From contig JADGQV010000004.1 of assembly GCA_017881465.1 (NCBI GenBank), positions 1-47,247 on the forward strand: a stretch of DNA of 47,247 nucleotides. Direction: 5' to 3'. This document shows positions 2,044 through 24,120 of the stretch, piece after piece. Every line of letters starts with the position of its first letter. The stretch's first letter is position 1. A program made the position numbers and the translations under genes. Origin of the DNA: Gemmatimonadaceae bacterium (lineage in GTDB: Bacteria; Gemmatimonadota; Gemmatimonadetes; Gemmatimonadales; Gemmatimonadaceae). The notes beneath the pieces are model-generated. The model did not search any database. It was not told where the DNA came from and was given only the letters and a program-made list of their open reading frames with translations.

Positions 2044-3401
2044 TGGATGATGTCCACTTTGGTCTTCACAACGGACTTGTCGATCAGCGCGGGCCAGTAT
2101 GCCACGATTTCTTCGACCTTGGGCCGCCCGCCGGCAAATCCAGTGACGCTCGGGGGCCCGTTCAGAACGAGCGGTGCAATCTCCCGCGTGAATCGTTCCA
2201 CCGCGGCGCGATCGGGGCCGCGGACTCCGAAGCGCAACTGTACCTCCGGCGCCTTGCGCTGGTCTCCGGCGAGGCGTCCGTGCGTAGCGTTCGCGCCGAC
2301 GAATTCGGAGAGGATGCGCTCGAAGCGGAGACCAAGCCTGTCCAGCCGCTGGCGCAGGATACGGTCAGCCAACTGCGCTTTTTCGAGCGCATCGGGCCAC
2401 GCATAGACGAGAGTGCCAACCGCCTTGAAGCCGGCGCGGTACGCCACTGAGACCTTGAGCTTGTCCGTCGGCGGCTTCCCCTTGATTCCCGTTACGAGCA
2501 CACGATCGTCGCCATCTCGCGCCACGCTGATCGTCGTGAAGTCGGCGATGACGTCGGGCGTGATGTAGGAGTGTGGATCACCCATCTCGTAGACAAGTTG
2601 CTCGCTCACCGTTTGAACAGAGACCCTTCCACCCGTGTTCGGATGCTTCGTCACGATAAAGGAGCCGTCAGGTTTTGCCTCTACCAGAGGATATCCGACG
2701 TTCGCAAGGTCGGGAATCGAACGCCAATCGTAGAGGCAGTTGCCGCCCGAGCATTGCGCCCCGCACTCGATGATATGTCCCGCCACGATTCCCGCTGCCA
2801 GCTGATCCCAGCTTTCTGCGCCCCAGGCGAACTCGTGACGAAGCGGCGCCATCGTGAGGGCGGTATCGGTCGAGCGTCCGGTGATCACGACGTTCGCTCC
2901 TTTGCCGAGCGCTTCCACGATCGGCTCGGAGCCGATGTATGCGTTGGCAGAAAGCACGCGGTCCCTCACGAGCGAGAGCGGCTCGCCGGTTTCCATGTTC
3001 GCCAGAGGATGTCCCGCTGCGATGAGCTGGTCGATACGACCGAGCAGATCGTCGCCCGAGACGACTCCGATTCGTAGCGCGCCCTTCGCTCCATTTTTCT
3101 CGGCCACCGCTTTTACCGCGGCGGCGCATGCGGGCGGATTCACTCCGCCAGCGTTTGCAATGATCTTGACACCTCTCTCGACCACGGCTGGAAGAACGCT
3201 TTCGATTGCACCGACGAAATCTCGAGCGTAGCCGAGAGAAGGGTCGCGCTCCTTCTGCTTCTGGAGAATCGACATCGTGACCTCAGCGAGGTAGTCGAGC
3301 ATCAGGTAATCAACCGGACCTCCCTCTACCTGGCGCCGCGGTGCGTCGAGATCATCGCCCCAGAATCCCTGGCCGGCGGCGACACGGACGACTTTCTTCA
3401 A
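2040..3401 (-). CDS. DUF1446 / AtuA family protein (acyclic terpene utilisation type)
   Basis: A 453-residue protein of the DUF1446 family. It starts [20 protein letters not shown], and contains the conserved stretches [32 protein letters not shown] and [24 protein letters not shown]. In Pseudomonas, AtuA is needed for growth on citronellol/geraniol, but its reaction is not settled. Here it sits between an acyl-CoA carboxyltransferase and the AtuA-like small domain plus an enoyl-CoA hydratase, the same gene company as in atu and liu-type pathways. The start codon is TTG, overlapping the carboxyltransferase TGA (TTGA). The cysteine/glycine-rich [10 protein letters not shown] segment could bind a ligand or metal (speculative). 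No membrane segment is seen. Substrate is unknown. Confidence 0.88.
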
Positions 3402-5092
3402 CTGCTCTCCTCCGAGAGATGAGGCGGAAGCACGAAGGGACCGAGGTGCGGTCCCGGATTGTGGAGAGAGGCTCGGAGTGCCAGGCTCAGCATCTCACGC
3501 GTATTCTCCGGATAGACGATGGCGTCGACGAATCCGCGTGCCGCCGCGTAGCGCGCATCGAGTTGGTGCTCGTAGTCGGCGCGCATCTCGTCGACCGATT
3601 TTGCGACCTCGGGCTCGAGAGCGCCCCCCTTTTTCTTCGCCGCTTCCAGGGCTGGTCCGTGCACCGCCTGAATCGCCGACTCGCCTTCCATCACCGCCAT
3701 CCGCCCGGTCGGCCAGCTGAGGATGAAATCGGGATCGAATCCCTGACCGGCCATTGCGTAGTATCCGGCGCCAGACGCGTGATTGACGGTGAGAACTATT
3801 TTGGGCACGCGCGCCGTCGCCATCGCTTCGACGAAGCGCGCGCCAGCACGGATGATCCCCGCGTGCTCCGCCTCGGTGCCGACCATGAAGCCGGAGACGT
3901 CCTGCACGAAGAGCAGTGGAATCCCCAGCCGGTCGCAGCGATCGATGAAGTACGCGACCTTTTCCGCGCTTTCCGTATAGACGATGCCGCCGAACCGTGG
4001 CTTCTCGCCCTCGCGGCCCTTGATCAGACCGCGCTGATTTGCGATGACGCCGAGCGTAATTCCATCGATTCGGGCGTCGCCGCAGATCATCTCCTTCGCG
4101 ATGCCGTCCTGGAACTCGTCGATCTCGCCGTTGTCCAGAATTGCCCGGAGCACCGCGTGCATGTCGTACGACATGCGGTGATCGGCGGGAAGGAGGTCGT
4201 ACAAATCCTCTTCCTTGCTGCCGGACTTCGCGGCCCTTGCTTTGGCCCTCGGCGTGCTCGCGCCGACGCGCGCTTTACCTGAATGCTGGTCGTCTTCCCC
4301 ATTGTCGTGCGGCAGGAGCGCGAGGGCGCGAGTCGTTGTCGGCAGACGCTCGATCAGGTCGCGGATCTTGGCGACGCACGCCTCATCGTTGTCCAGCGCG
4401 TAGTGCGCGACGCCGCTGATCTCGGTGTGCGTTGATGCTCCGCCCAGAGTCTCCGAATCCACGACCTGTCCCGTCGCGCCCTTCACCAGATTCGGACCAC
4501 CCAGCCCCATGAACGATGTGCCCTTCACCATGAGAATCACGTCCGAGAGCGCGGGCAGATATGCGCCGCCCGCAATGCACTGTCCCATCACCGCCGCGAT
4601 CTGCGGAATGTGCAGGTAACGCCGCATGATCGAGTTGTAATAGAAGATACGCGCCGCTCCGTACTGGCCCGGGAAGACGCCACCCTGATACGGCAGGTTC
4701 ACGCCAGCGGAATCGACGAGATACACGATCGGTATGCGGCACCGCATGGCGATCTCCTGAGCCCGCAGAATCTTCTTGATTGTCTCGGGCCACCACGACC
4801 CAGCTTTCACCGTAGCGTCGTTGGCGACGACGACCGTCTCGCGACCGTGCACTCTCACGATCGCAGTCACGACTCCAGCCGCAGGAGCCTGTCCTTCGTA
4901 CTGGTCGTAGGCGACGAGGAGCCCGATCTCGAGCATGCTCGAGCCATTGTCGCGGAGAAGCTCCACCCGCTCGCGCGCCGAGAGCTTCCCCTGCTGGTGC
5001 AGCTTCTCGATCCGTTTAGCTCCCCCCGCCTCACGAAGCTTTGTCTCGAGCGCCCTAACCTCGTCGCTCAGCTCGCGCAGGCGATTGCTCAC
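3398..5092 (-). CDS. Acyl-CoA carboxylase, carboxyltransferase (beta) subunit
   Basis: A 564-residue biotin-dependent carboxyltransferase. The N-terminal half has [32 protein letters not shown] and [15 protein letters not shown], which resemble methylcrotonyl- or geranyl-CoA carboxylase more than propionyl-CoA carboxylase. The C-terminal half has [28 protein letters not shown] and a [14 protein letters not shown] segment. Between the halves is a charged, low-complexity linker (about residues 255-295). I chose the GTG at 5092, whose first base is the last base of the preceding TAG and which has AGGAAG upstream; the track start at 5125 lies inside the previous gene. No biotin carboxylase or biotin carrier gene is visible nearby, so the alpha subunit must be elsewhere. 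Decarboxylase-type use is an alternative. Confidence 0.88.
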
Positions 5093-5502
5093 TACGCTTC
5101 CTGCTTTTCGCGCGTGGCGAACCACTCCTTGATGTACGCGATCAGCTCCGTCGTGGGGGTGCCCGGCCCGAACAGTCGCCCGATTCCGCGGCGCTCGAGT
5201 GTATCAACGTCTTCCTTTGGGATGATTCCACCGCCGGTGATCAGGATGTCGTCGCGGCCTTGCGCGTGAACGAGATCCTGAACGCGAGGGATGAGCGTCA
5301 TATGGGCGCCGCTCAGGATCGAGAGGCCGATGACGTCGACGTCTTCCTGGATCGCCGCGGTCGCGATCATTTCGGGCGTCTGATGCAGGCCTGTGTAGAT
5401 GACTTCCATCCCGGCGTCGCGAAGCGCCGCGGCGACGACCTTGGCTCCCCGGTCATGTCCATCAAGACCGGGCTTGGCGACGAGAACTCGGATTGGTCTC
5501 AT
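5092..5502 (-). CDS. Acyl-CoA mutase small subunit, cobalamin-binding domain (IcmB-like)
   Basis: A 136-residue stand-alone B12-binding domain. It has the DxHxxG motif at residues 14-19 (LDGHDRGAK), whose histidine is the lower axial cobalt ligand, then GLSILSGAH and ITGGGIIP, which line the nucleotide tail. The product begins [17 protein letters not shown] from an ATG at 5502; the longer track ORF to 5808 merely extends antisense to the methyltransferase gene. Length matches the small subunit of two-subunit mutases such as isobutyryl-CoA mutase (IcmB) and of archaeal split methylmalonyl-CoA mutases. The large subunit is two genes upstream, at 6296-8020. The 47-base gap before the start is one of the larger ones in this operon. 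Confidence 0.92.
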
Positions 5503-5549
5503 AGAGAGGTCAAAGTTAGCGGCTGCGGAGCGCGAGCGGCAATCGGGCC

Positions 5550-6299
5550 CTATTCTTTGCGGGCGACCAGGAGCATCTCGGATGCCGTTCTTCCGAGCGG
5601 TCGATCGTCGAATCCATCCCAGGCCTGCTCCACAACCAGACCCGCATCGGCGAACAATTCCGACAATCGCGTGGCCGTGTACAACCTGAGCCTGTGTTCC
5701 CGGTTGCCGCTCCTCGTGCCCCGCCTCCACGTCGATCGCACCGTCAGCAGGCCGGAGAGCGGGTCGAACTCGCGCTCCTGCGCGAATAGAGTCTTTCCCG
5801 ACGTCCACCAGTCGCGCTCCAGAAATCGCGCCATCACCCCGTCTCTGCTGCCGCCGTGCCAGACGAGCACTCCGCCCGGCTTGAGGACGCGAGCGAATTC
5901 AGTTACGACTCGCACATCCTCCGCCGGATGCGCGAAGAAGCCGAACGAAGTGAAGAGATTGAGCACGGCATCGAATCGCCTGGTCCAGCGCGCGGGCATC
6001 TTTCGCATGTCGCCACGCGTATATCGAAGCCTCGGGCCGCTACCGCGCTTGCGGGCTACCGCGAGCAGTTCGTTGGAGTAGTCTAGACCGTCCACATCGT
6101 ATCCCGACTCGGCCAGCAGGTGTGCATGGCGTCCCTGTCCGCACGGGACGTCGAGTACGCGTGATCCTACCGGCAAACCGAGCAGATCTATGAGACGCGC
6201 TGTTTCCTGGCGATCGCGCTCGGGTGTGAAGAGCGGGCCGTACTCCAGGAGATAGTGAGCGTCGAAGGCAGACTCCCACCACTCGCTCGACTTCTTCAG
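5550..6299 (-). CDS. SAM-dependent class I methyltransferase
   Basis: A Rossmann-fold methyltransferase of about 249 residues. Motif I is [20 protein letters not shown], followed by the acidic post-motif GLDYS, the GDMRKMP segment and [14 protein letters not shown]. It ends [10 protein letters not shown]. The track ORF to 6614 runs antisense into the mutase gene, and its first 100 residues look like shadow. The protein-like part begins [21 protein letters not shown]. The likely start is the CTG at 6299, which forms CTGA with the mutase stop in the same 4-base overlap style as its neighbours; no ATG or GTG lies nearby in frame. It sits between the two mutase subunit genes, which is unusual. 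Substrate unknown; small molecule more likely than DNA. Confidence 0.8.
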
Positions 6300-8020
6300 A
6301 AGAAAACTGGCTCGCGGTAGGCGCCGAACACCGACTCCATCGCGGCGCGGATCTCGTAGAGCGTGCAGTAGGCGCGGGCGCAATCGAGGATGTAGGGCAT
6401 GAGATTCCGCGACGTGCTTGCCGCTTGGCGTAGCGCGCTCAGCCTCTTCTCGACGAGCGTGCTGTCTCGGGCCGAACGCATCTTCGCCATCCGCTGCCCC
6501 TGCTCTCGCTCGGTCTCCTCGGCGATCTTGAGAAGCTCGATCTCGAGCGCCGGTCCGTCCGTGACGAATTCGTTCACGCCGACGATGACGCGCCGATGCT
6601 GCTCGACTTCCCACTGCTGCCGCGCGGCCGACTCATTGATCTTCCGCTGCAACCATCCCGTCTCGAGGCCCCGCACGACGCCTCCGACCTCCTCGATCTG
6701 CTTGAACAGCAACTCGGCTTCGCGCTCCAGCTCTGTCGTGAGCGTCTCGACGTAGTACGACCCGCCAAGCGGATCGATGACGTTCGGAACTCCCGTCTCG
6801 TAGGCGAGAATCTGCTGGGTGCGAAGGGCGACCTGCACCGACTCCTCGGTCGGCAGCGCCAGCGTCTCGTCCATCGAGTTGGTGTGCAGCGACTGCGTCC
6901 CACCGAGTGCCGCCGCCATCGCCTGGTAGGCGACGCGCACGACGTTGTTCATGGGCTGTTGTGCGGTGAGCGTGACGCCCGCCGTCTGCGAGTGAAACCG
7001 CATCATGAGCGAGCGCGGATCCTTGGCGCCGTACCGATCCTTCATGTGCCGCGCCCAAATGCGGCGCGCCGCGCGGAGCTTGGCAATCTCCTCGAAGAAA
7101 TCGTTGTGGATGTCCCAGAAGAATGAGAGTCGCGGCGCGAACGTATCGACGTCGAGGCCGCGAGCGATCCCGCGCTCGACATATGTGAATCCGTCGGCGA
7201 GCGTGAAAGCCAGCTCCTGTGCCGCCGTCGCACCAGCTTCTCTGATGTGATAGCCGGAGATCGATATCGTGTTCCACTTCGGGACGTGCTCGGCCGACCA
7301 CTCGAAGCAGTCGACGATGAGCCTGAGCGCGGGCTCGATGGGGTAAACCCACGCGTGCTGCGCCATGTACTCCTTGAGGATGTCGTTCTGGATCGTCCCG
7401 CGCAGCTTCGTCGAATCGACGCCCTGCTTCTCCGCCGCCGCGATGTAGAAGCAGTAGAGAATTACCGCCGGTCCGTTGATGGTCATCGACGTCGAGACCT
7501 GATCCAGCGGTATGCCGTCGAAGAGCGTCTCCATGTCGGCGAGGCTCGAGATCGCGACGCCGCACTTGCCGACCTCTCCCTCGGACCTGGGATGATCGGA
7601 ATCGTAACCCATCAAGGTCGGGAAATCGAACGCCACGGAGAGTCCGGTCTGCCCCTGCGCGAGTAGGAACTTGTACCGCTCGTTCGTGTCGCGCGCGCTT
7701 CCGAACCCGGCGAACTGCCGCATCGTCCACAAGCGGCCGCGATACCCGGTTGGGTGGACGCCTCGCGTGTACGGATAGAAGCCCGGCATTCCCAGCGCTT
7801 CGGCGCTCGTCTCAGCCGCGTCGAGTGGCGTGTAGATCGGCTGGACTTCCTTCTCCGAGTTGGTGAACGCGATGTCACGCAGCTCGCCCTTCTCGTACTT
7901 CTTCCGCCACTCGGCGACTTCCGTGCGCAGCAGGCGAAGCTCGGCGCTCTGCTCTTCGATGGTCGCGATCAATTCGTTGTCGGCGGCGCCTTTGGAGCTG
8001 GGGCTTTTGAGTTTCGTCAT
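6296..8020 (-). CDS. Acyl-CoA mutase large subunit (methylmalonyl-CoA mutase family, isobutyryl-CoA mutase-type active site)
   Basis: A 574-residue TIM-barrel catalytic subunit of a coenzyme B12-dependent acyl-CoA mutase. Family hallmarks include [48 protein letters not shown] and [11 protein letters not shown]. It lacks the C-terminal B12 domain, which is encoded separately at 5092-5502; 574 plus 136 residues matches the IcmA/IcmB pair. Methylmalonyl-CoA mutase uses Tyr89 and Arg207 to bind the free carboxylate. The equivalent positions here are Phe103 ([10 protein letters not shown]) and Gln221 ([12 protein letters not shown]), exactly 118 residues apart as in both known enzymes. Phe/Gln is the isobutyryl-CoA mutase signature, so interconversion of isobutyryl- and butyryl-CoA is favoured. 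Automatic annotation would likely say methylmalonyl-CoA mutase. Its ATG overlaps the meaB stop (ATGA). Confidence 0.9.
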
Positions 8021-9063
8021 TTATCCTCTTCTCCACGTACGAGCTCACCGCTCTGTCGCAACAGCTGGTCGGCGACGGCAAACGGAGTGGCGCGTCCCTC
8101 TTCAACCGATGGCAGCTGCAGCTCGAGCCGACTCATCGTGGCCGTGTCCTTCCACAGGCGGACGCGGATTTTCTGCTCCACGATATCCATCACGCGCTCC
8201 CGCAATCGCTCACGCCTGCGCGCGCCGAGCTTCCCGCTCTGCTCAAGATAAGCGAAGTGACGGTCGAGTGCCGCCACGAAGTCCGTGATTCCCTCGTCCT
8301 TTGTCGCGATCGTGCTCAACACCGGCGGCGTCCACTCGGCGGGGTTCGGCGCGGCCGCCGCTTCACGCGCCGCGCGCGCGGGATTCATGCGCTTGAGATC
8401 GATTCCGTGATGCGCCGGAACGCTCCCGAACGAAACGCCCTTTCGCAGGCCCAGCATCAGTTCGACATCGTTGCGCAGACGGTCGGCGCCGGGCCGGTCG
8501 GCCTTGTTGACGACGAAAATGTCCGCCACCTCCATCACCCCCGCCTTGAGCGTCTGGATCGAGTCGCCGGATTCCGGGACGAGAATCAGCGCGGTCGTAT
8601 CGGCCGTCCGAGCGACGTCCAGCTCCGATTGGCCTACACCCACGGTCTCGATCAGCAAACGATCGAACCCGAACGCATCCAGGACGTCGGCCACTTCCCG
8701 CGTCGCGGCGGCAAGACCGCCGAGCGAGCCACGCGTCGCCATCGAGCGGATGAATACTCCCGGATCGAGCGCGACGCTCTCCATGCGCACGCGATCGCCG
8801 AGGAGCGCGCCGCCGGTGAAGGGCGACGTCGGATCCACGGCAATCACTCCAACCCTGAGTCCGGCCTCGCGAAACCGCTTCACGAGGAGCGCGGTGATCG
8901 TGCTCTTCCCCGCGCCGGGCGGTCCGGTCAAGCCGATGCGCCGTGCCCGCCCCGTTCGCGGATGCAGATCGCCGAGTATCTGCTCGAATCCCTCTCGATG
9001 GTTCTCGACGATGCTGACCACGCGCGCCAGGGCCGCCGGTTTCCCGGCGTCGAAATCATCCAT
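8017..9063 (-). CDS. meaB: MeaB/ArgK-family G-protein chaperone of B12-dependent mutase
   Basis: A 348-residue P-loop GTPase of the MeaB/ArgK group, which gates cofactor loading and protects B12-dependent mutases from inactivation. Walker A is GPPGAGKS at residues 47-54, followed by [33 protein letters not shown] and the NKAD nucleotide-specificity motif. I start it at the ATG at 9063, eight bases past the ybeY stop; the track start at 9156 adds a basic segment that is antisense-like and lies inside ybeY. It precedes the mutase large subunit with an ATGA overlap, so the chaperone and its client are co-translated. The stand-alone form fits a two-subunit mutase, not the fused IcmF type. Confidence 0.93.
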
Positions 9064-9070
9064 CAAGCGG

Positions 9071-9520
9071 TTAGAGGACACGCGCGAGAATCCTCTCCTG
9101 GCTCCGCCACATGCGCGACGTGGTGCGTCCCGCGCCCGTCGGGTGATCGTGACCAAGAACGTGAAGCGTGCCGTGGACTACGAGGCGCAGCAGCTCCTCT
9201 CCAGCCGATATGTCCTGTCGGCGGGCGTTTTCCCGCGCAATCTCAGCGCAAATGTAGACATCCCCCACTACGGCGCCGCGTTTCCCAACCCGGCCGAGTC
9301 CGAACGAAATCACGTCGGTCGGTCCATGGTGCCCGAGGTAGCGATGGTTCAGCTGTGACATTGTGGCTCGCCCGACGAACGTGATCGATAGCATGGCGTC
9401 CTTTACGCGCTCAGCTTTGAGAGCGGCGACAGCGGCCTCTCTTATTCTCGCGCGCGACACACTGAGACGCCGCACGCTCGATGAAATGTCTATCGCGAGC
9501 CCGCGCGGAGGCCTCTTCAT
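9071..9520 (-). CDS. ybeY: Endoribonuclease YbeY (rRNA maturation)
   Basis: A 149-residue YbeY protein, a metal-dependent endoribonuclease involved in 16S rRNA 3'-end processing and ribosome quality control. The zinc-binding motif HGTLHVLGHDH is complete near the C-terminus. It is preceded by the family segments LNHRYLGHHGPTDVISFG and VVGDVYICAEIA. It follows phoH by 24 bases, the widely conserved phoH-ybeY pairing. Length is normal for the family. The C-terminal tail after the motif is short and ends ERILARVL. The product is cytoplasmic. Downstream is meaB, so an RNA-processing block feeds directly into the acyl-CoA block on the same strand. Confidence 0.95.
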   Translation of the reverse strand: MKRPPRGLAIDISSSVRRLSVSRARIREAAVAALKAERVKDAMLSITFVGRATMSQLNHRYLGHHGPTDVISFGLGRVGKRGAVVGDVYICAEIARENARRQDISAGEELLRLVVHGTLHVLGHDHPTGAGRTTSRMWRSQERILARVL

Positions 9521-9544
9521 CTGGTCAGCGCCGCGCGAGTTCGC

Positions 9545-10504
9545 TCAGGCGCCCGAATCCTCTGCGTACGCCATGATGATCTCGCGCACGAGCCGGTGGC
9601 GGACGACATCGGCCTCGGTGAGATAGTAGAACCCGATGCCTTCGATGCCCGGCAGTATTCGCTCGATCTGGACAAGTCCCGAATCTTCCCTCTTGGGCAG
9701 GTCGATCTGCGTCTTGTCGCCGGTGATCACCGCCCTCGAGTTAACGCCGAGCCTGGTCAGAAACATCTTCATCTGCGCGGTCGTTGCGTTCTGGGCCTCG
9801 TCGAGAATGACGAACGCATCCGCGAGCGTTCGTCCGCGCATGTAGGCGAGGGGTGCGATCTCGATGGTGCGCGTCTCGAGCGATTTCAGCACGCGCTCGT
9901 GGGGCATCATGTCCTCGAGCGCGTCGTAGAGCGGCCTCAGATACGGATCGACCTTCTGCTGCATGTCTCCGGGAAGAAATCCGAGGCTTTCGCCGGCTTC
10001 GACCGCGGGACGCGCGAGGACGATGCGACGAACGCGCTTGCGCGCGAGCGCGTCGACGGCCGCGGCAACCGCCAGGTAAGTCTTGCCGGTGCCGGCCGGC
10101 CCAATGCCGACGACGATGTCGTTCTCCGCCATCAGCTTCATGTACTCGGCCTGTCCGCTGGTCTTCGCCTGAATGATCTTCCGGACACCGGGAAGAACGA
10201 TGCGCGTCTCGTTGTCCACGCCGTTTCCGTTGCCATCGCGGGGACCCTCCATGCTCATGCGGAGCACATCGTCTGCGGTCATCGGCATCTGCTGCTTGGC
10301 GGTGTCGATCATGCGCTGGGCGACTGGTATGGCTCGCGCGACTGATTCCGCGTTTCCGCTGACTGCAAGCGTCTCGCCGCGGAGTGCGATCTTGGCTCCC
10401 GTCTGACGCGCCAGCTCGACAAGGTTCTCGTCGTTGACGCCGGCCAGCGTCAGCATGTCCGCCCCTTCAGTCGAGAGGCGCTGAATCGTTGTCTCTTCGC
10501 TCAC
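9545..10504 (-). CDS. phoH: PhoH-family ATPase (YbeZ-like)
   Basis: A 319-residue PhoH-like P-loop ATPase. The N-terminal 100 residues look like a KH-type RNA-binding module (ENLVELARQTGAKIALRGETLAVSG). The ATPase core has Walker A in GIGPAGTGKTYLAVAAAVDA and Walker B in AFVILDEAQNAT, plus RPAVEAGESLGFLPGDM, all typical of PhoH/YbeZ. It likely works with YbeY, encoded next, in rRNA or mRNA metabolism. The GTG start at 10504 lies one base after the aspS stop. No regulatory phosphate box was seen upstream because aspS is immediately adjacent, so the name PhoH should not be read as phosphate regulation. Confidence 0.94.
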   Translation of the reverse strand: MSEETTIQRLSTEGADMLTLAGVNDENLVELARQTGAKIALRGETLAVSGNAESVARAIPVAQRMIDTAKQQMPMTADDVLRMSMEGPRDGNGNGVDNETRIVLPGVRKIIQAKTSGQAEYMKLMAENDIVVGIGPAGTGKTYLAVAAAVDALARKRVRRIVLARPAVEAGESLGFLPGDMQQKVDPYLRPLYDALEDMMPHERVLKSLETRTIEIAPLAYMRGRTLADAFVILDEAQNATTAQMKMFLTRLGVNSRAVITGDKTQIDLPKREDSGLVQIERILPGIEGIGFYYLTEADVVRHRLVREIIMAYAEDSGA

Positions 10505-13484: not shown

Positions 13485-13856
13485 GCTGTCGGGACGTATC
13501 GCGATCGGAGCATTCATAGCGCGGGCGACCAGACGCGCCCATTCCGGATGCGAAGATCGATCGTAGACAATGGTAGTCGCGCGTTGCTCGGTCACATTGC
13601 CAGAGCCAACAACATCGAAACCGCGGTCGCGTAAATACAGCGTCGCGCGGCGCGCTAGACCCTTCGTCTTGGTCGCATTCAGAACCTCCACCTTGATGCG
13701 TGTTCCGTCCGGAGCCCGCGCATCATCGGGCGCGTAGCTCACCTTCGGCGCGGAGAAGGCACTGATGACCAGCCAAACAATCCATCCGATCACGCACAGA
13801 ATCAGTAGAACGAGAATGAATCTGCCGTAACGGCGCCGGCGCGGCGGGGGCGTCAC
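13413..13856 (-). CDS. LytR C-terminal domain membrane protein
   Basis: A 147-residue protein with a basic N-terminus (TPPPRRRRYGR), one membrane helix (about residues 12-34, FILVLLILCVIGWIVWLVISAF) and an external C-terminal domain. That domain, IKVEVLNATKTKGLARRATLYLRDRGFDVV, matches the LytR_C domain usually found at the end of LytR-CpsA-Psr cell-wall proteins. The catalytic LCP domain is absent, so this is a stand-alone LytR_C protein, probably envelope-associated. Its GTG start overlaps the yqeK stop (GTGA). It is the last gene of the minus-strand trp/fol/pan chain and overlaps rlmN tail-to-tail. Function is not established. Confidence 0.8.
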   Translation of the reverse strand: MTPPPRRRRYGRFILVLLILCVIGWIVWLVISAFSAPKVSYAPDDARAPDGTRIKVEVLNATKTKGLARRATLYLRDRGFDVVGSGNVTEQRATTIVYDRSSHPEWARLVARAMNAPIAIRPDSSRYLDVTVLVGADWRPPPLPFHP

Positions 13857-14398
13857 CGCAGACTATTCCAGAGCTCGACGGTCTCGGGAAAAATGTGATT
13901 GCCCTCGCGCACCGACCACTCGAGGCGGAAGCGCACGACCTGGCGAAACACGCCGTCGAAGTTGTGCGGCACCTGGGTGGCTAGAAAGCCGCGATCCTCG
14001 GCGAGAAATTTGCGGCCCAGCTCGAGGTAATCCGCCATGTAGAGTGCGCGTCCCGTTCGATCCCAGCTCGCGTGTCCGACGGTGTGATAGCGAATGGCGT
14101 CGAGCAGATTGTTTCTCCGCTCTCCTTCGGCTTCGAGCTTGATCGCGACCGCTGGGCCATGCAGCAGGCCGTCGGGGGATTTCCGATCACCCGTGATGTC
14201 GCGCAGCTCGTGGATCGGCGCATCGCGCAGCGCGTCGTGCCAGGTGCCGGCATCGATCCAGGCATTCGCTTCGTCCGCGGTCAGGCGCATCGCCGCCCCC
14301 CACGCCCGCAGCAGCGCCGTCACGCGCGCTATGTGCGCCAGACGCCGCTCGCTCACCTGCGCCCACGTCGGCAATCCCGAGCTCTGGAGACGGACCAT
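13853..14398 (-). CDS. HD-domain hydrolase, YqeK-like (Ap4A hydrolase type)
   Basis: A 181-residue HD-superfamily protein. The metal-binding pattern is visible as RLAHIARVTALL, DAGTWHDALRD, LLHGPAVAIKL and IRYHTVGHASWDRTGRALYMADYLELGRKF. The last segment (HT.G...... ...YMADYLE) is characteristic of YqeK, the symmetrical Ap4A hydrolase of many bacteria that lack ApaH. The divergence at TWHD (usually LLHD) lowers certainty. It follows panC by one base and is followed by the LytR_C gene. In many genomes yqeK is followed by LytR and rsfS genes; rsfS is not present here. Confidence 0.75.
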   Translation of the reverse strand: MVRLQSSGLPTWAQVSERRLAHIARVTALLRAWGAAMRLTADEANAWIDAGTWHDALRDAPIHELRDITGDRKSPDGLLHGPAVAIKLEAEGERRNNLLDAIRYHTVGHASWDRTGRALYMADYLELGRKFLAEDRGFLATQVPHNFDGVFRQVVRFRLEWSVREGNHIFPETVELWNSLR

Positions 14399-16475: not shown

Positions 16476-16849
16476 ACACGCTCTCGCTCGAGGGCAACTT
16501 CCGCGTACGCGAGCGGTCCCGGCAGCGCGACGTTGGGTTTCCGCACGGCTATGCGCACGCGCTCGACCAGCGGGAGCTGGAGGGCGCGGTCCGCGATTCG
16601 CTCGCCGACTTCCTCGAGAAAGTTGGTATGGCCCTGCGTCACGACCTCCGCCACGAGATCGTACAAGCGCCGATAGTCGACGATGTCCTTGGCGGTGGGC
16701 CGCTCACCGCTGCGCCGAACCCAAAGCGATGCGTCAACCTCGATCGACTGCGCAATCTCGGCCTCGTGCGGCAGCACGCCGATGCGCGCGTGAAATCGCA
16801 TCGCCTTGAGGGTGACCACATCGGTATCCGTCGCGTGGTCACTAGCCAT
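16472..16849 (-). CDS. folB: Dihydroneopterin aldolase
   Basis: A 125-residue FolB, converting 7,8-dihydroneopterin to hydroxymethyl-dihydropterin and glycolaldehyde. The family pattern is ARIGVLPHEAEIAQSIEVDASL with the substrate-binding glutamate. FLEEVGERIADRAL follows, then VERVRIAVRKPN with the conserved lysine. I place the start at the ATG at 16849, not the TTG one codon upstream. It overlaps the trpA stop by a few bases. FolB and FolK are consecutive steps and overlap by 4 bases here. Confidence 0.93.
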   Translation of the reverse strand: MASDHATDTDVVTLKAMRFHARIGVLPHEAEIAQSIEVDASLWVRRSGERPTAKDIVDYRRLYDLVAEVVTQGHTNFLEEVGERIADRALQLPLVERVRIAVRKPNVALPGPLAYAEVALERERV

Positions 16850-17639
16850 CAAGAGCCTCTCGCAGACTACGTGTCAGTTTCAGAACATCCTCCGGGCCAT
16901 GCCCAGCCGCACTCACGAGCGCGCTGCCGACCACGACTCCGTCGGCCAGCTTGCCGACGCTGCGGGCCTGCTCCGGCGTGGAGATTCCAAATCCGACGCA
17001 AATCGGAAGCGTGGTCGTGGATCGAAGGCGCTGGATCGTATCGGGCAATGATGTCGCGATCTTTTCCTGAACTCCGGTGACACCGAGCCGGCTGATAAGA
17101 TAAACGAATCCGCTGCCGTGCCGCGCGATCTCAGCCATTCTGTCGCGCGGGGTCGTCGGGGCGACGAGCCTGATGAACGCGAGAGGACTGGCGCCAAGCC
17201 ACTCCTCGCGCGCTGGATCGGCGCCAACCGGAATGTCGGTGACGAGAATCCCGCTTGCGCCGGCATCTGCCGCTCTCGTGAGAGCGTCGGGGCCCGCGGC
17301 GAGAATCGGATTGAGGTAGCTGAACAAAACGACGGGGACGCGGGGCTTTGCGCGCTCGATGAGGGCGAGGACGCCGTCGTAGGTCATTCCCTTCTCCAGC
17401 GCCTGCTGCGAGCTGGCCTGGATCACCGGTCCATCCGCGATCGGGTCCGAGAAGGGCACGCCGAGCTCGATGACGTCGGCACCGCCTTCCTCGAGCGCGC
17501 GCAGCGTTTCCAGAGAGCGCCCGACGTCGGGATGGCCTGCTGTTACATAGCAGACCAGGGCGCGGCGGGATTCTTTTTTGAGCGCGTCGAAGCGACGCGC
17601 TATGGGGTTAGATGAGGTAGTCGCCGGGGGTGATACCAT
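16842..17639 (-). CDS. trpA: Tryptophan synthase alpha chain
   Basis: A TIM-barrel enzyme cleaving indole-3-glycerol phosphate to indole. The catalytic glutamate and aspartate are in VIELGVPFSDPIADGPVIQ. The phosphate-site segments GVTGVQEK and ICVGFGISTPEQARSV are present. I choose the ATG at 17639 (265 residues, normal length) over the track start at 17678. It then overlaps the 3' end of the HD-GYP gene by 32 bases. It is separated from its partner trpB by two signalling-type genes, although trpB and trpA are usually adjacent. Confidence 0.95.
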   Translation of the reverse strand: MVSPPATTSSNPIARRFDALKKESRRALVCYVTAGHPDVGRSLETLRALEEGGADVIELGVPFSDPIADGPVIQASSQQALEKGMTYDGVLALIERAKPRVPVVLFSYLNPILAAGPDALTRAADAGASGILVTDIPVGADPAREEWLGASPLAFIRLVAPTTPRDRMAEIARHGSGFVYLISRLGVTGVQEKIATSLPDTIQRLRSTTTLPICVGFGISTPEQARSVGKLADGVVVGSALVSAAGHGPEDVLKLTRSLREALDG

Positions 17640-19077
17640 AGCGATCGGGGTCCGCCGTCTTGATGATGGTCCGGGCATATTGCCCTCCTGCCTCCGGGAC
17701 GGCCAGGTCCACCTGCATCGGCGGACTGATTGTATTCCCCTGCGCGTCGCTGATGATCTTGACGATCGGTCTCGAGAGCGCCTCAGGATTCGGATTGGCC
17801 GCCGAGACGACGGCGAGCTCGAAAGTGTCGAGCACTACCAGCGTTCCGACCGGGTAAATGCCCAACAGGTTTATGAATGCTTTGACGAGCACCGGATCCA
17901 ACCCGCGACGCGGATTGTCGCGCATCTCCTGGAGAACAGCCGAGGGAGCGATTACTTCCGTCCTGTAAACGCGTCTCGATGTGGCCGCATCGTAGCCGTC
18001 GGCGATCGAGACGATCTTGCTGAGAACGCTGACCTGGCGTGGGCGAATGGATTTCGGGTAGCCCGTCAGATCAACTTTCATGTGATGCTCCTGGCACACC
18101 GTCATGGCGCGGTACGAAAGCTCCTCCTGCTGCCGGCGGAACTGGAATAGCACCAGCACGCCGAGCCAGGGGTGGGCGGCCATCCACTTCCACTCTTCGT
18201 CGGTGAGCTCGCCGGTCTTCTGGAGGAGGTCGATCGGAACTCGCGATTTGCCGATATCGTGCATGAGCGCGGCGAGGCCCAGCTCATACAGCTGGAGCTT
18301 GGTCATGCCGAGGCGGCGTCCGAGCGCGATCGAGAAGATGCACACGTTCACCGAGTGCGTGAACGTGTATTCGTCGTAATCGCGGATCGCGGTCAGGCCG
18401 ATGAGCGATGTCTCTTCGTTCAGAACCTGATCGACGATCCCCTGCACGACGCGCTTGATCTTCCTGATGTTCGGCGTCTTGCCAATCCTGACCGAGTTGA
18501 TGACGTCCTTGGTGACGGCAACCGACTGGGAGTAGGTCCGATTGGCGGCCGCCTTTGCTTCCTCGTTGAACTCCTTGTCGGTCGCGGTTTCGGTAGGAGG
18601 GTCAAGTTGGAACATCTCGATCTTCGCGTCCCTGAGCCTGGACTGAATCTCCATGAATCTTTCGGCGGGCGCATTCTTGGTTTCACCGCCCATCAGCGAC
18701 AAGAGCAGCGTCCAGTCGCGAGCCGTTCCGTCAGTGCCGACGTGAATCGCGCCGATGCCGGCGAGCTTGCAGAGCGTCAGGATGTGTCCGAACGTGGCGT
18801 AGTTGCTGAGATCGAGTCTGAGCCGCGTCGAGTTGATGAAGATGAACTCTCCCGAGATTCTGAACTCGAGCTCACCCTCTTCGGCGCGCAGCTCTTCGGC
18901 GACATGCGACAGCTCGGCCAGGGTTTTTTGCACGGCGCTGTGCTCGAGCGGATAGAGCTTGATCGCCCGCAGCGCGGCGTAGAACGCGACCATGAAATTT
19001 CTTCCGCCGCGACGGACGTTGGCGCCGGATGCCCTGTCTCCGTCGCCGGAGACGGTCTTCGTGGCCTGAGCGGTCAC
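17608..19077 (-). CDS. HD-GYP domain protein (putative cyclic-dinucleotide phosphodiesterase)
   Basis: A 489-residue protein with an N-terminal domain of about 100 residues (27-130) resembling that of the HEAT-repeat neighbour. The HD-GYP domain follows (about 200-400). Metal and signature residues are THSVNVC, the HD pair at 274-275 (ALMHDIGKSRVP), His332-His333 and GYP (EHHMKVDLTGYPK), and SIADGYDAATSRRVYR. Canonical HHE..DG.GYP is altered to HHM..DLTGYP. HD-GYP proteins hydrolyse c-di-GMP or related dinucleotides. A C-terminal segment of about 80 residues (TLVVLDTFELAVVSAAN) looks like a small beta-rich domain. No membrane segment or receiver domain. It overlaps the HEAT gene by 4 bases and lies between trpB and trpA. 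Confidence 0.85.
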   Translation of the reverse strand: MTAQATKTVSGDGDRASGANVRRGGRNFMVAFYAALRAIKLYPLEHSAVQKTLAELSHVAEELRAEEGELEFRISGEFIFINSTRLRLDLSNYATFGHILTLCKLAGIGAIHVGTDGTARDWTLLLSLMGGETKNAPAERFMEIQSRLRDAKIEMFQLDPPTETATDKEFNEEAKAAANRTYSQSVAVTKDVINSVRIGKTPNIRKIKRVVQGIVDQVLNEETSLIGLTAIRDYDEYTFTHSVNVCIFSIALGRRLGMTKLQLYELGLAALMHDIGKSRVPIDLLQKTGELTDEEWKWMAAHPWLGVLVLFQFRRQQEELSYRAMTVCQEHHMKVDLTGYPKSIRPRQVSVLSKIVSIADGYDAATSRRVYRTEVIAPSAVLQEMRDNPRRGLDPVLVKAFINLLGIYPVGTLVVLDTFELAVVSAANPNPEALSRPIVKIISDAQGNTISPPMQVDLAVPEAGGQYARTIIKTADPDRYGITPGDYLI

Positions 19078-20774
19078 CCCGTGCCTCCGCGAATCGCGCG
19101 GCTGACGGCGTTTCTGACGATCACATCCTTCTCGCCTGCCGCGCGGTTGAGAGACTCCATTGCTTTTGCACTATTGATCTTGCCCAGAGCCATCGCGGCA
19201 CAGGCGCGCATCTCGGCGTCGTCCTTTTTGCCCATGAATCCTTTGGCGTTGAGCAGACCGTCGAGGAGGGTGACCCCCGCATCGCCACAGAGGAGGCCAT
19301 ACGCCTCGAAGAAGGCCATCTTCTCCGTCAGATTGCTATCCCGCAGCTCCTTCCCCTTGATCACCGCCTCGATTCGCGGCGACGCCGCCCTGGCGTTGCG
19401 AGCGCCGAGCGCGCGCACGGCGACGATGCGTACCTCGCGGTCCTCGTCGATCAGCGCGCGCTCGAGCATCTGCATTGCGCCGGCCGACCCGATTTCCGTG
19501 AGCGCGGTCACGGCGGCGACGCGCATGTCGGACTCTCCGACGGTGAGCATCTTTCCGAGCGCTGGTACCGCCGCGGGCGACTTGAGCGCAGCCGCACGGC
19601 GGATCGCCTCGAGGACAACTGCTTCGTCGTCCGACCCGATGAGACGAATGAGCTCCGCGCTGTTGCTGCTGGCCAGGCGACCGGCGGCGACCTCGAGCAG
19701 CATCTTGAGCGAAGGATTGTTGCTGCGTCCGATCCAGCCGAGAATTGTCTCGAGCGCACGGGGCTGGAGAATTCCGAACAGCTCATCCAGCTCGTGCTGG
19801 GGGGCGCGAAGGGGCGAATCTTCGAGCGCCTGAAGGAGCTGCCCCAGCGGCTTGGGATCGCTCATCAGCTCGCCGAGCTGCATGAGACGATTCTTCTGCG
19901 TCTCCAGCACCTCGGGCGCGCGGTTCGCGGTTACTCCTGCTTCGCGCAGGAGGTATGCGGCGTTTCGATACTGCGCGGTGGAGAGGAGAATGAGGAGGAA
20001 ATAGTCGAGCAGTCCGCAGATCTCCTCGCGCACTGTCGGGTCCTTCTGGTTCTCGAATGTGTCCAGGAGCGATGCGATTACGGACGGCCGCAAATCGGTG
20101 GAAAATTCCCGCTTGATCTCGCCCTGCAGATATTCGACTTCGTGGTCGTCGAGGAAATAGAGGGTCGCGTCGAACTCGTCCATGCTGGCGATCGAGGACT
20201 GGGTCGATTCGAGACCAGCCTCAGCCTGCGCCGGCGAGAGAATCTTTTCCTTTTGCTCCGCCCGCTCCATGGATTCGACGCCGGGGCCGCCATCCTGCGT
20301 GAGATCGACGTATCGGTACTGCAGCGTCACGAACTCGCGCTCCCACATCAGCGTGAGGAGGTCGTCGTCGTCATCTGTCGCCTTTCTAACGCGCTGCAGG
20401 AGGTTGAAGAACACGCCAAGCTCTTCCTGCTCGAACCCCTTGAGCATCTTCAGCTCGCGAACGCCATCTTTGTAGAGGAGCCACGCGATGTTGTCGCTGG
20501 TCCGCTCCTCCTCGTCGAGAACCACGCGGCCTTCCCACTCGAGGCGTGTCTCGACCACCTGCAGGTCGATCTCGTCGGTGTGCACCCAGAGCGCGGCGAA
20601 CGATTCCCTGACAGCTTCGAGAGAGCGCGCGTGCATCGGATTGTTCGGCAGATAGAGCTGATGCGCGCGAACGGCCTTGACGAAGGCCTTGAGCAGGTCG
20701 GTGACGTAGACAATCGGGAACGAAGGCTCACTGAGCTCGCGTTCCTCGGTCTTTGGTGGAACCGACGTTGTCAT
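19074..20774 (-). CDS. HEAT-repeat protein with N-terminal domain shared with HD-GYP neighbour
   Basis: A 566-residue cytoplasmic protein without a recognised enzyme motif. Residues about 27-130 ([20 protein letters not shown] ... [13 protein letters not shown]) align in position and pattern with the start of the adjacent HD-GYP protein. The second half is helical repeats of the HEAT/PBS-lyase type. Examples are [52 protein letters not shown] and [18 protein letters not shown]. Such repeats are usually protein scaffolds. It overlaps trpB (ATGA) and the HD-GYP gene (GTGA) by 4 bases each. I infer a scaffold or regulatory partner of the HD-GYP protein. Confidence 0.8.
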
Positions 20775-21955
20775 GCGGGAAGAAGTCCCATTTCAGTTAT
20801 CTGCGCGAGATCCTTGTCGCCCCGACCGCTGATGCAGATAAGCACCGCGTCGTCCTTTTTCCACCGTTCTCTCTCTTTGACGACCCAGGCGACCGCGTGT
20901 GACGTTTCCAGGGCGGGGATGATTCCCTCGAGCCGGCTGAGGATTCCGAGCCCCTCGACTGCTTCGTCGTCGGTGACGGAGACGTAGAGCGCGCGACCTG
21001 TCTCCTTGAGGTAGGAGTGCTCGGGCCCCACTCCAGGGTAATCGAGCCCCGCTGAGATCGAGTGCGCGGGATGGACCTGGCCGCTCTCATCCTGTAGCAG
21101 ATAGCTGAGCGAGCCGTGGAGGACGCCCGGAACTCCACGCTGGAGGGAGGCGGAATGCTCGCCCGTATCGAGACCCTTTCCGGCCGCTTCGACTCCTACC
21201 AGCTCCACTGCCCGGTCTGGCACGAAGGCGTGGAATATTCCCATTGCGTTGGATCCGCCGCCTACGCACGCCACTACGCTGGAAGGTGCACGACCGGCCG
21301 TCTCGAGCATTTGAGCTTTTGCCTCCCGCCCGATGACTGATTGGAAATCACGAACCATTCGAGGGTACGGTGCCGGACCAACGACCGAGCCAATGATGTA
21401 GTAGCTGTCATTGACGTTCGTGACCCAGTCGCGAATCGCTTCGCTGGTCGCGTCCTTGAGAGTCCGCGTTCCGGAAAGGACGGGGACGACTTTCGCTCCC
21501 ATGAGCCGCATGCGATAGACGTTGAGCTGCTGCCGTCGCATGTCCTCTTCGCCCATGTAGACCGTGCAATCGAGGCCGAACCGCGCGCACACCGTCGCCG
21601 TCGCCACTCCGTGCTGGCCCGCGCCCGTTTCCGCGATGATGCGTCGCTTGCCCATCCGCTGCGCCAGCAGCGCCTGCGCAAGTGCGCTGTTGATCTTGTG
21701 CGCACCGGTGTGATTCAGATCCTCGCGCTTGAGATACACGTCGCACCCCACCGCGTGGGACAGTCGCGGAGCGGTGCTGAGCGGAGATGGACGCCCAACG
21801 TATTCCTTGAGAAGGCGGTCCAGCTCACGCTGGAACTCCGGGTCGCGGATCGCCTGGTCGAACGCGGCATCCAGCTCGTCGAGCGCGGGAATCAGCGTCT
21901 CGGGCACGTACCGGCCGCCGAACGCGCCGAAACGGTGGAGGGTGTCCGTCGCCAC
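20771..21955 (-). CDS. trpB: Tryptophan synthase beta chain
   Basis: A 394-residue PLP enzyme condensing indole with serine. The N-terminus [20 protein letters not shown], the PLP lysine motif [15 protein letters not shown] and [10 protein letters not shown] are all typical of TrpB1. The phosphate loop is [13 protein letters not shown]. Starts with GTG at 21955, one base after the trpF stop. Its usual partner trpA is not adjacent but lies 3.1 kb downstream, after the HEAT and HD-GYP genes. Confidence 0.97.
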
Positions 21956-22607: not shown

Positions 22608-23454
22608 CGCCAGTCCGAGCAACGTCCGTGAGAGCGCGCGCTGCCGCTTCGGGATCGCGCGCGCCCGACAGCTCCGAGCCGACGAGAACCGCATCGGCGC
22701 CCGCGTCAGCGAAGCGCTTCACGTCCGCCGCTGATTTCACTCCACTCTCCGCGATCGCGAGCACGCCGCGCGGAATGAGCGGCAGGATTCTGAGCGACGT
22801 CCCGGCATCGATCTCGAGCGTCTCCAGATTTCTGTTGTTGACTCCAATCAGGCTGGCATTCAGGGAGAGCGCGAGATCGAGCTCTCGCTCGTCGCGGACT
22901 TCCACCAGAATCTCGAGCGCCACATCAGCCCCCGCGGTCATCAGATCCTTGAGACGCCCGGGAGGCACGGCGCGCGCGATGACGAGCGCGGCCGAGGCGC
23001 CAAGTACCCTCGCCTCGAGAATCTGCGACACCTCCACGTGAAAATCCTTCTTGAGCAGAGGAAGCGCGACTGACTTTCGTGCGAGGACAAGATCATCGGC
23101 CGAGCCGCCGAATCTGGTGGGCTCGGTGAGGACGGATATCGCGGCCGCGCCGCCCGCCTCGTAGGCCCTTACCTGCCGAGCGAGATCGAGACCTGGATTG
23201 ATGGCGCCCCTGGATGGCGAGGACCGCTTCACTTCCGCGATCACGCCAACCCGCCGACCCTGGAGCGCGTCGCGGAATGATGGGACGTTGCCGGCACGGC
23301 GCGCCATGCGCTCGAGCTCAGCCGCGCGAGGAGCCAGAGTTGCGGCCCGAGCGCGTGCTTCGTCCGTCAACTCACCGAGGGTGCCTGTCGGCGGTGTCCA
23401 GCCAGAAAAAGCTTGCGCTTCGGTCGATCTTCGGCTAACGTAGGAATTCGGCAA
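22591..23454 (-). CDS. trpC: Indole-3-glycerol phosphate synthase
   Basis: A TIM-barrel enzyme closing the indole ring. Signatures are IAEVKRSSPSRGAINPG, LPLLKKDFHVEVSQI with the catalytic lysine, LEILVEVRDE and IGVNNRNLETLEID. The start is uncertain because no ATG or GTG lies just before the conserved TGTLGELTDEARARAATL region. I use the TTG at 23454 (287 residues); a TTG at 23370 would give 259 residues but cut conserved helix alpha0. The track start at 23646 lies inside lexA. It is the first gene of the trpC-to-LytR_C chain and is divergent from lexA, so the two share an upstream region. Confidence 0.92.
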   Translation of the reverse strand: MPNSYVSRRSTEAQAFSGWTPPTGTLGELTDEARARAATLAPRAAELERMARRAGNVPSFRDALQGRRVGVIAEVKRSSPSRGAINPGLDLARQVRAYEAGGAAAISVLTEPTRFGGSADDLVLARKSVALPLLKKDFHVEVSQILEARVLGASAALVIARAVPPGRLKDLMTAGADVALEILVEVRDERELDLALSLNASLIGVNNRNLETLEIDAGTSLRILPLIPRGVLAIAESGVKSAADVKRFADAGADAVLVGSELSGARDPEAAARALTDVARTGGARKG

Positions 23455-23472
23455 ATGTTCGGTGGGATCGGC

Positions 23473-23482
23473 GGACCGGTCC
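23473..23482. promoter_or_regulatory. Perfect palindrome GGACCGGTCC in the lexA-trpC divergent region
   Basis: The 10-base inverted repeat GGACCGGTCC is centred about 35 bases upstream of the lexA ATG, in the short divergent region with trpC. Its place suits an operator for either gene. It does not match the LexA boxes I know from Proteobacteria or Firmicutes. A nearby sequence, CGGCAAATGTTCGG, has one GTTCG half site like the Firmicutes-type box, but its other half is poor. A short GC palindrome can occur by chance in this genome, so this is a candidate only. Confidence 0.3.
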
Positions 23483-23511
23483 TTTCTCAAAACCAGCCGC
23501 GGAATAAGGAT

Positions 23512-24120
23512 ATGTCGCTCACAAAACGCCAACGGGAGATTCTGACCTACCTCGCCACCTACTCCGAAGAGCACGGCTACGCGCCAAGCTTCGAGGAGAT
23601 CGCGACGGAGTTTAACTATAACTCCCTCGCGACGGTGCACGAACATCTCACGAATCTCGAGCGCAAGGGCTACATCAAGCGCGCCTACAACGAGAGTCGC
23701 GGCATCGAGCTGATTCCGTCAGAGATATTTCCTCGGGCTACAACCCTGCAGCTGCTTGGAACGGTCGCGGCAGGCATGCCGATCGAAGCCATCCAGATGC
23801 CCGAGACCATAGGTGTCCCTGAGGACCTCGTCCGTCGCAGCGGAAACCACTATGTGCTCCGGGTTCGGGGTAACTCGATGATCGATGAGCAGATCCGCGA
23901 CGGGGACTTCGTCATCGTCAACGAGAAGCACACCGCCGACAATGGAGAGATGGTCATCGCCCTCATCGACGGTACGTCCGCCACCGTCAAGAAGTTCTAT
24001 CGCGAGCGGGACGGGCGAATCCGGCTTCAGCCCGCGAACGAAACGATGAACCCCATCTACGTTCACGAGAACGACATTTCGATCCAGGGAATCGTCGTGG
24101 GTGTGCTGAGAAGGTTCTAG
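23512..24120 (+). CDS. lexA: LexA repressor (SOS regulator, S24 family)
   Basis: A 202-residue LexA. The N-terminal winged helix is TKRQREILTYLATYSEEHGYAPS followed by ATVHEHLTNLERKGYIKR. The self-cleavage site Ala-Gly lies in LLGTVAAGMPIEA. The catalytic serine is in RGNSMIDEQI and the lysine in SATVKKFY. Start is the ATG at 23512, preceded by AAGGA; the track start at 23413 would add about 33 non-family residues. It is a single plus-strand gene placed between trpD and trpC, convergent with trpD (11-base gap) and divergent from trpC. It probably represses itself and DNA-damage genes elsewhere. Confidence 0.96.
   Translation: MSLTKRQREILTYLATYSEEHGYAPSFEEIATEFNYNSLATVHEHLTNLERKGYIKRAYNESRGIELIPSEIFPRATTLQLLGTVAAGMPIEAIQMPETIGVPEDLVRRSGNHYVLRVRGNSMIDEQIRDGDFVIVNEKHTADNGEMVIALIDGTSATVKKFYRERDGRIRLQPANETMNPIYVHENDISIQGIVVGVLRRF

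Follow-up and report, generated by a model that had tools for sequence, protein, structure and literature searches.

Gene pair between trpB and trpA

The DNA analysed here (the window) is a stretch of 47,247 nucleotides from a Gemmatimonadaceae bacterium (contig JADGQV010000004.1), and the subject of this study is a pair of adjacent genes in it, coding for a HEAT-repeat protein and an HD-GYP protein, respectively, which lie on the minus strand in the gene order trpC-trpF-trpB-HEAT-HDGYP-trpA-folB-folK-panB-panC. The gene of the HEAT partner (19074..20774, minus strand; 566 amino acids) was assigned on the basis of its open reading frame (ORF), a match to Pfam HEAT_2 (60.9 bits against a curated cut-off of 27.7; E-value 1.5e-16) and the adjacency of its orthologs to those of the HD-GYP gene. 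Its product is made up of an N-terminal domain shared with the HD-GYP protein, a helical middle region and C-terminal HEAT repeats (about residues 376-561; 19092..19649, minus strand), the repeats being matched by HEAT_2 and by HEAT-type NCBIfam models. The gene of the HD-GYP partner (17608..19077, minus strand; 489 amino acids, GTG start) was assigned on the basis of its ORF, the sequence at its boundary and Pfam matches to HD_5 (1.8e-16) and HD (1.7e-11). The same two protein classes had been named in a preceding reading of the DNA letters and ORF translations (the sequence-only reading), and both were confirmed by these Pfam matches.

Shared N-terminal domain

The shared domain covers about residues 22-130 of the HEAT protein (20385..20711, minus strand; motif QLYLPNNP) and about residues 24-140 of the HD-GYP protein (18658..19008, minus strand; motif KLYPLEHS). 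No common N-terminus was found by BLASTP between the two window proteins (best E-value 3.2), so that their homology is invisible to single-sequence comparison. Profile-profile comparison was done by using hhalign with about 40 orthologs of each protein, residues 20-175 of the HEAT protein being aligned to residues 20-165 of the HD-GYP protein, and gave a probability of 94.6% (E-value 6.6e-8, 101 columns), against 0.1-0.6% for seven control pairings of other regions of these two proteins. A second, smaller pair of ortholog alignments gave 92.3% (5.6e-7). The profile of the HD-GYP N-domain also matched the N-terminus of the HEAT protein of genome G074 directly in HMMER (7.5e-5), and a bridging HEAT protein (L100) was matched at 90.1% by the HEAT N-domain profile and at 90.2% by the HD-GYP one. 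Judged by these profiles, the two N-terminal domains are homologous. The sequence-only reading had proposed such a common domain and had staked itself on this very comparison, in which the N-termini were found to be related in both runs and the proposal was borne out against the controls.

In the conserved core, an LYPxxHP / LYLPNNP turn connects two long helices, which are followed by a beta hairpin, then by a helix and a strand, and finally by a helical end. Models of both domains by AlphaFold2, built from one set of 13 alignment rows that were ordered differently, have the predicted topology αα-ββ(β)-α-β-αα-β, with a predicted local distance difference test (pLDDT) score of 92 and a predicted template modelling (pTM) score of 0.86 for the HD-GYP N-domain, and 80 and 0.74, respectively, for the HEAT N-domain, in which the elements follow in the same order. 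No Pfam model covers either window N-terminus, and no consistent Pfam match was obtained across the 50 domain copies scanned. The HD-GYP N-domain profile found no convincing match among PDB sequences; likewise, nothing was found at E ≤ 0.001 by Foldseek with both models against PDB or with the HD-GYP N-domain model against a viral model library. PelD, PDE6 and other GAF-type chains were among the top Foldseek rows, but a GAF identity was not adopted because their E-values exceeded 0.3 and their template modelling scores (TM-scores) were about 0.2 or less. L102 and L104, considered as further families with the shared domain, were dropped, their matches being weak and insignificant. The shared domain thus appears to be undescribed and, as far as the models go, may represent a new fold.

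Catalytic site and c-di-GMP context

The HD-GYP catalytic domain occupies about residues 232-405 (17863..18384, minus strand), as delimited by HD_5 and by matches to PDB entries 5z7c, 4mcw (PmGH) and 4r8z, and keeps conserved catalytic residues. Residues were mapped by alignment to PmGH, and their roles were taken from the literature (PMC4159591). The HD...GK motif is present as H273-D274-K277, and of the eight metal ligands of PmGH, seven have a counterpart (H241, H273, D274, H302, H331, H332 and D360). The catalytic D183 and K225 of PmGH align with D235 and K277, which, like these seven ligands, are invariant or nearly so; D363 and R369 correspond to PmGH D308 and R314. The GYP loop is a variant one, HHMKVDLTGYP at residues 331-341 (18055..18087, minus strand), as against the consensus HHExxDGxGYP (PMC4159591). 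According to column counts in 40 orthologs, the family loop is HHMxxD(L)(T/S)GYP, with HH, D and GYP invariant, Glu replaced by Met in 38/40 and Gly by Leu in 35/40; the altered loop noticed from the sequence alone is therefore confirmed as a fixed trait of the family.

Both the conserved residues and the genome context argue for a catalytic output, and hydrolysis of a cyclic dinucleotide by the HD-GYP protein is strongly suggested, its substrate most probably being cyclic di-guanosine monophosphate (c-di-GMP) from the cell's GGDEF enzymes. This substrate is favoured because of the genome context: among the 26 genomes tested, GGDEF is encoded in 11/11 with the pair and in 4/15 without it (Fisher p 2e-4, with kinship not corrected). 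The most compact case is G028, a reduced genome of 1.8 Mb listed as 100% complete, which encodes one GGDEF protein (L185:6770-8134) with an intact RWGGEEF motif and an RxxD site; its single HD_5 domain is that of the pair (L062), and no EAL domain was found in a search across the genome. It apparently holds a minimal c-di-GMP circuit. Within the same class, in families f5 and f7 (for example G017, G034 and G042), no GGDEF match was obtained in 11 of the 12 genomes sampled and no HD_5 in the five tested, and c-di-GMP signalling is apparently absent from this part of the Gemmatimonadota.

Conservation of the pair in Gemmatimonadota and other phyla

Close orthologs of both genes were found in the same 41 of 61 Gemmatimonadota genomes and neither gene in the other 20, the equality of the two sets having been checked. 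Adjacency and gene order are conserved, and the exact 4-base overlap between the HEAT and HD-GYP genes was found in 21 of the 39 loci compared. The two genes, put forward as a pair in the sequence-only reading, are thus borne out as one unit by their joint presence and absence, the very pattern on which that proposal could have failed. G027 has both genes a second time, in diverged form and away from trp, the second HEAT gene carrying an in-frame stop. A second copy of the pair in G008, situated at contig ends and perhaps an assembly duplicate, was not used as evidence.

Paralogous pairs were also found. At nine Gemmatimonadota loci (L075, L077-L080, L082-L084 and L098), an HD-GYP gene with the shared domain is directly preceded by a gene for a domain-bearing protein of 626-744 amino acids (shared-domain E-values 5e-20 to 8e-4), one of these pairs being in the source genome itself (L077, 4114-6282/6278-7510); at a tenth locus (L076), the shared-domain match is marginal. 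A second-type HD-GYP gene (L099; G015:C1:42483-43202) is broken by a stop between its N-domain and its HD domain and is either a pseudogene or an assembly error. In two family-f3 genomes, HEAT proteins with the shared domain (L100, 5562-7076; L101, 4866-6368) occur without an HD-GYP neighbour, just upstream of a mutL-like gene, and may possibly represent a solo use of the domain.

Loci outside the phylum were among the matches listed of one genome scan dominated by generic HD-GYP proteins and do not amount to a full phylogenetic distribution. An Armatimonadetes metagenome-assembled genome (MAG; L128, JACQTN010000436.1) carries two shared-domain HEAT/HD-GYP pairs in tandem at 2458-9603, four same-strand genes in a row; a deltaproteobacterial MAG (L111) carries an overlapping HEAT-type/HD-GYP pair with the shared domain; and in the pair of a Phycisphaerales MAG (L108), the upstream member was excluded when the profile was built and matches the shared domain at 1.6e-6. 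The HD-GYP member is present on an Eisenbacteria contig (L119), where the upstream reading frame is HEAT-like by eye only. The protein upstream of the HD-GYP member of a Planctomycetota locus (L141) was first accepted as a partner by eye and then dropped as it had no profile support. Adjacent genes that both carry the shared domain are accordingly found in Gemmatimonadota, Armatimonadetes, Deltaproteobacteria and Phycisphaerales, and the layout, a shared-domain HEAT-type protein followed by a shared-domain HD-GYP protein, recurs in several bacterial phyla, which is broader than the module was first proposed to be.

Relation to the tryptophan genes

The neighbours of the pair, taken as context outside the module, are trpB upstream (20771..21955, minus strand; TIGR00263) and trpA downstream (ORF 16842..17678, minus strand; TIGR00262; likely start at 17639 or 17678). 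The trpB/HEAT and HEAT/HD-GYP junctions are exact 4-base overlaps (ATGA and GTGA, respectively), as had been read from the letters, but the overlap of the HD-GYP gene with trpA is longer than the 4 bases then given, the HD-GYP stop being at 17608-17610, and 17639 and 17678 being the candidate starts of trpA. A lexA-like gene (23413-24120, opposite strand) separates trpC from trpD within the trp cluster, a placement kept across the class. At 13853-14398, a 181-amino-acid protein is encoded that has an HD-like motif but no Pfam match; it is conserved on the downstream side of the pair in almost all of the relatives inspected.

In six genomes (G028, G050, G037, G041, G038 and G043), the pair follows lexA and precedes the usual downstream genes with no trpB or trpA at the locus; trpB is not in the genome of G028 and G050, so the pair can do without it, and is located elsewhere in the other four. 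Conversely, in six pair-less members of the same class (G057, G052, G034, G035, G045 and G017), the neighbourhood is unchanged and trpA comes immediately after trpB. Because the pair and the trp genes are each found without the other, the pair is not tied to tryptophan synthesis, and no functional link is supported to the trp operon, inside which the pair had been placed in the sequence-only reading. Its place between the two trp genes is best explained as an ancient co-transcription site that is probably incidental to function.

Proposed mechanism and alternatives

The reading favoured here, held as moderately probable as a whole, is that the pair constitutes a two-gene cyclic-dinucleotide signalling module, in which a phosphodiesterase and a dedicated HEAT scaffold are joined through the shared domain at an incidental position in trp. 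The HD-GYP protein, as a probable c-di-GMP phosphodiesterase, would be the output of the module. With moderate confidence, the two proteins would be complexed via the shared domain, in a hetero- or homotypic manner, and the HEAT solenoid would serve as a regulatory or targeting arm by which the phosphodiesterase is localised or gated. As had been suggested from the letters, the shared domain may sense or dimerise and the HEAT repeats may recruit a partner.

Several observations weigh against this reading. In the catalytic site, the PmGH metal ligand E185 is replaced by a near-invariant Tyr237, the position of PmGH K317 is mostly Gln in the orthologs and the Glu of the GYP loop is Met. The agreement of the two AlphaFold2 models is supportive and not independent of the sequence evidence, as the same 13 rows were used. 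Phylogeny confounds the association with GGDEF, since the genomes without both pair and GGDEF belong mostly to two families. The upstream partners at L108 and L083 are without a Pfam HEAT match, so that HEAT repeats may not define the partner everywhere, and at L141 the protein upstream of the HD-GYP member shows no shared domain above the threshold.

The substitutions by Tyr at E185 and by Met in the GYP loop, present in nearly all orthologs, would suit an HD-GYP protein that is mainly degenerate, a non- or weakly catalytic c-di-GMP receptor whose binding switches the HEAT scaffold, acting as a read-out and not as an eraser, for which an inactive HD-GYP protein, Bd1817, is a precedent (PMC4159591). 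This is considered unlikely, in that all the other metal ligands and the catalytic D235 and K277 are invariant or nearly so and G028 yielded no further hydrolase of the HD-GYP or EAL type. Tyr237 at the position of E185 suggests a dinuclear rather than a trinuclear metal site; in PmGH, the E185A substitution lowered hydrolysis without abolishing it and mutations in the GYP motif had little effect (PMC4159591). An active HD-GYP enzyme, which may have a dinuclear site, is therefore preferred. It is somewhat less probable again that the two genes share descent and act separately, an ancestral shared-domain gene having given rise to both by tandem duplication, after which each copy came to work alone: L100 and L101 show that such HEAT proteins can stand without an HD-GYP neighbour, but the distribution of the two genes, present together or missing together in 61 genomes, the conserved overlapping order and the repetition of the layout in several phyla speak for joint action. 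A role of the pair in regulating or supporting tryptophan synthesis, such as that of a scaffold for TrpA and TrpB, with a functional position to which the conservation of the insertion across several families would testify, is very improbable and already largely refuted by the six genomes with the pair and no trpB at the locus, by the six pair-less ones with adjoining trpB and trpA, and by the paralogous and cross-phylum pairs outside trp loci.

A bolder form of the two-gene module is advanced only tentatively: the pairs may form a family, spread over several phyla, of c-di-GMP phosphodiesterases that are obligate complexes of two proteins, held together by an undescribed domain, possibly of a new fold, in each subunit; in some minimal genomes, such a complex would be the sole degrader of c-di-GMP, the HEAT arm then being the main route of control. 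Either way, the Gemmatimonadota gain a near-core signalling pair together with an undescribed domain, and a small genome with one GGDEF protein and this HD-GYP protein would be a very simple c-di-GMP circuit.

Comparison with known systems

In the mostly non-subscription literature searched, there was no description of an HD-GYP protein with HEAT repeats or of a HEAT protein with a c-di-GMP phosphodiesterase, and nothing on c-di-GMP or trp operons in Gemmatimonadota. The HD-GYP and HEAT proteins are of known kinds, and what appears to be new is the shared domain and the two-gene arrangement. The PBS-lyase-type HEAT proteins (CpcE/F, NblB) have HEAT repeats in common with the window HEAT protein and gave weak NCBIfam matches, but the scores are far under the curated cut-offs (27 of 300 and 21 of 220 bits) and the matches are confined to the repeats, the N-domain being left unmatched. 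The best PDB sequence match to the window HD-GYP domain is V-cGAP3 (5z7c; 5.2e-21), a phosphodiesterase of 3'3'-cyclic GMP-AMP (3'3'-cGAMP), but the match is limited to that domain. RpfG carries a receiver domain and is not known to have a HEAT partner that shares its N-terminus. It resembles the window protein as an HD-GYP protein with protein partners, the function of this phosphodiesterase including protein-protein interaction with GGDEF proteins (PMC4159591).

PmGH, the GAF-HD-GYP c-di-GMP phosphodiesterase of Persephonella marina (4mcw, 4mdz and 4me4), has the same framework of HD, HH, Asp and Lys as the window protein and likewise an N-terminal domain before the catalytic one. It differs in that the window N-domain is not a GAF domain by Pfam and has no significant PDB fold match, and in that the window protein has Tyr at E185 and the loop HHM..DLTGYP, its orthologs mostly having Gln at K317. 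The window HD-GYP protein, moreover, comes with a dedicated HEAT partner in which the same N-domain is found. The usual description of HD-GYP enzymes is of one polypeptide chain headed by a fused sensor domain; a conserved, separate HEAT partner with a copy of the enzyme's own N-domain would imply a different wiring of cyclic-dinucleotide turnover, that of a two-subunit device.

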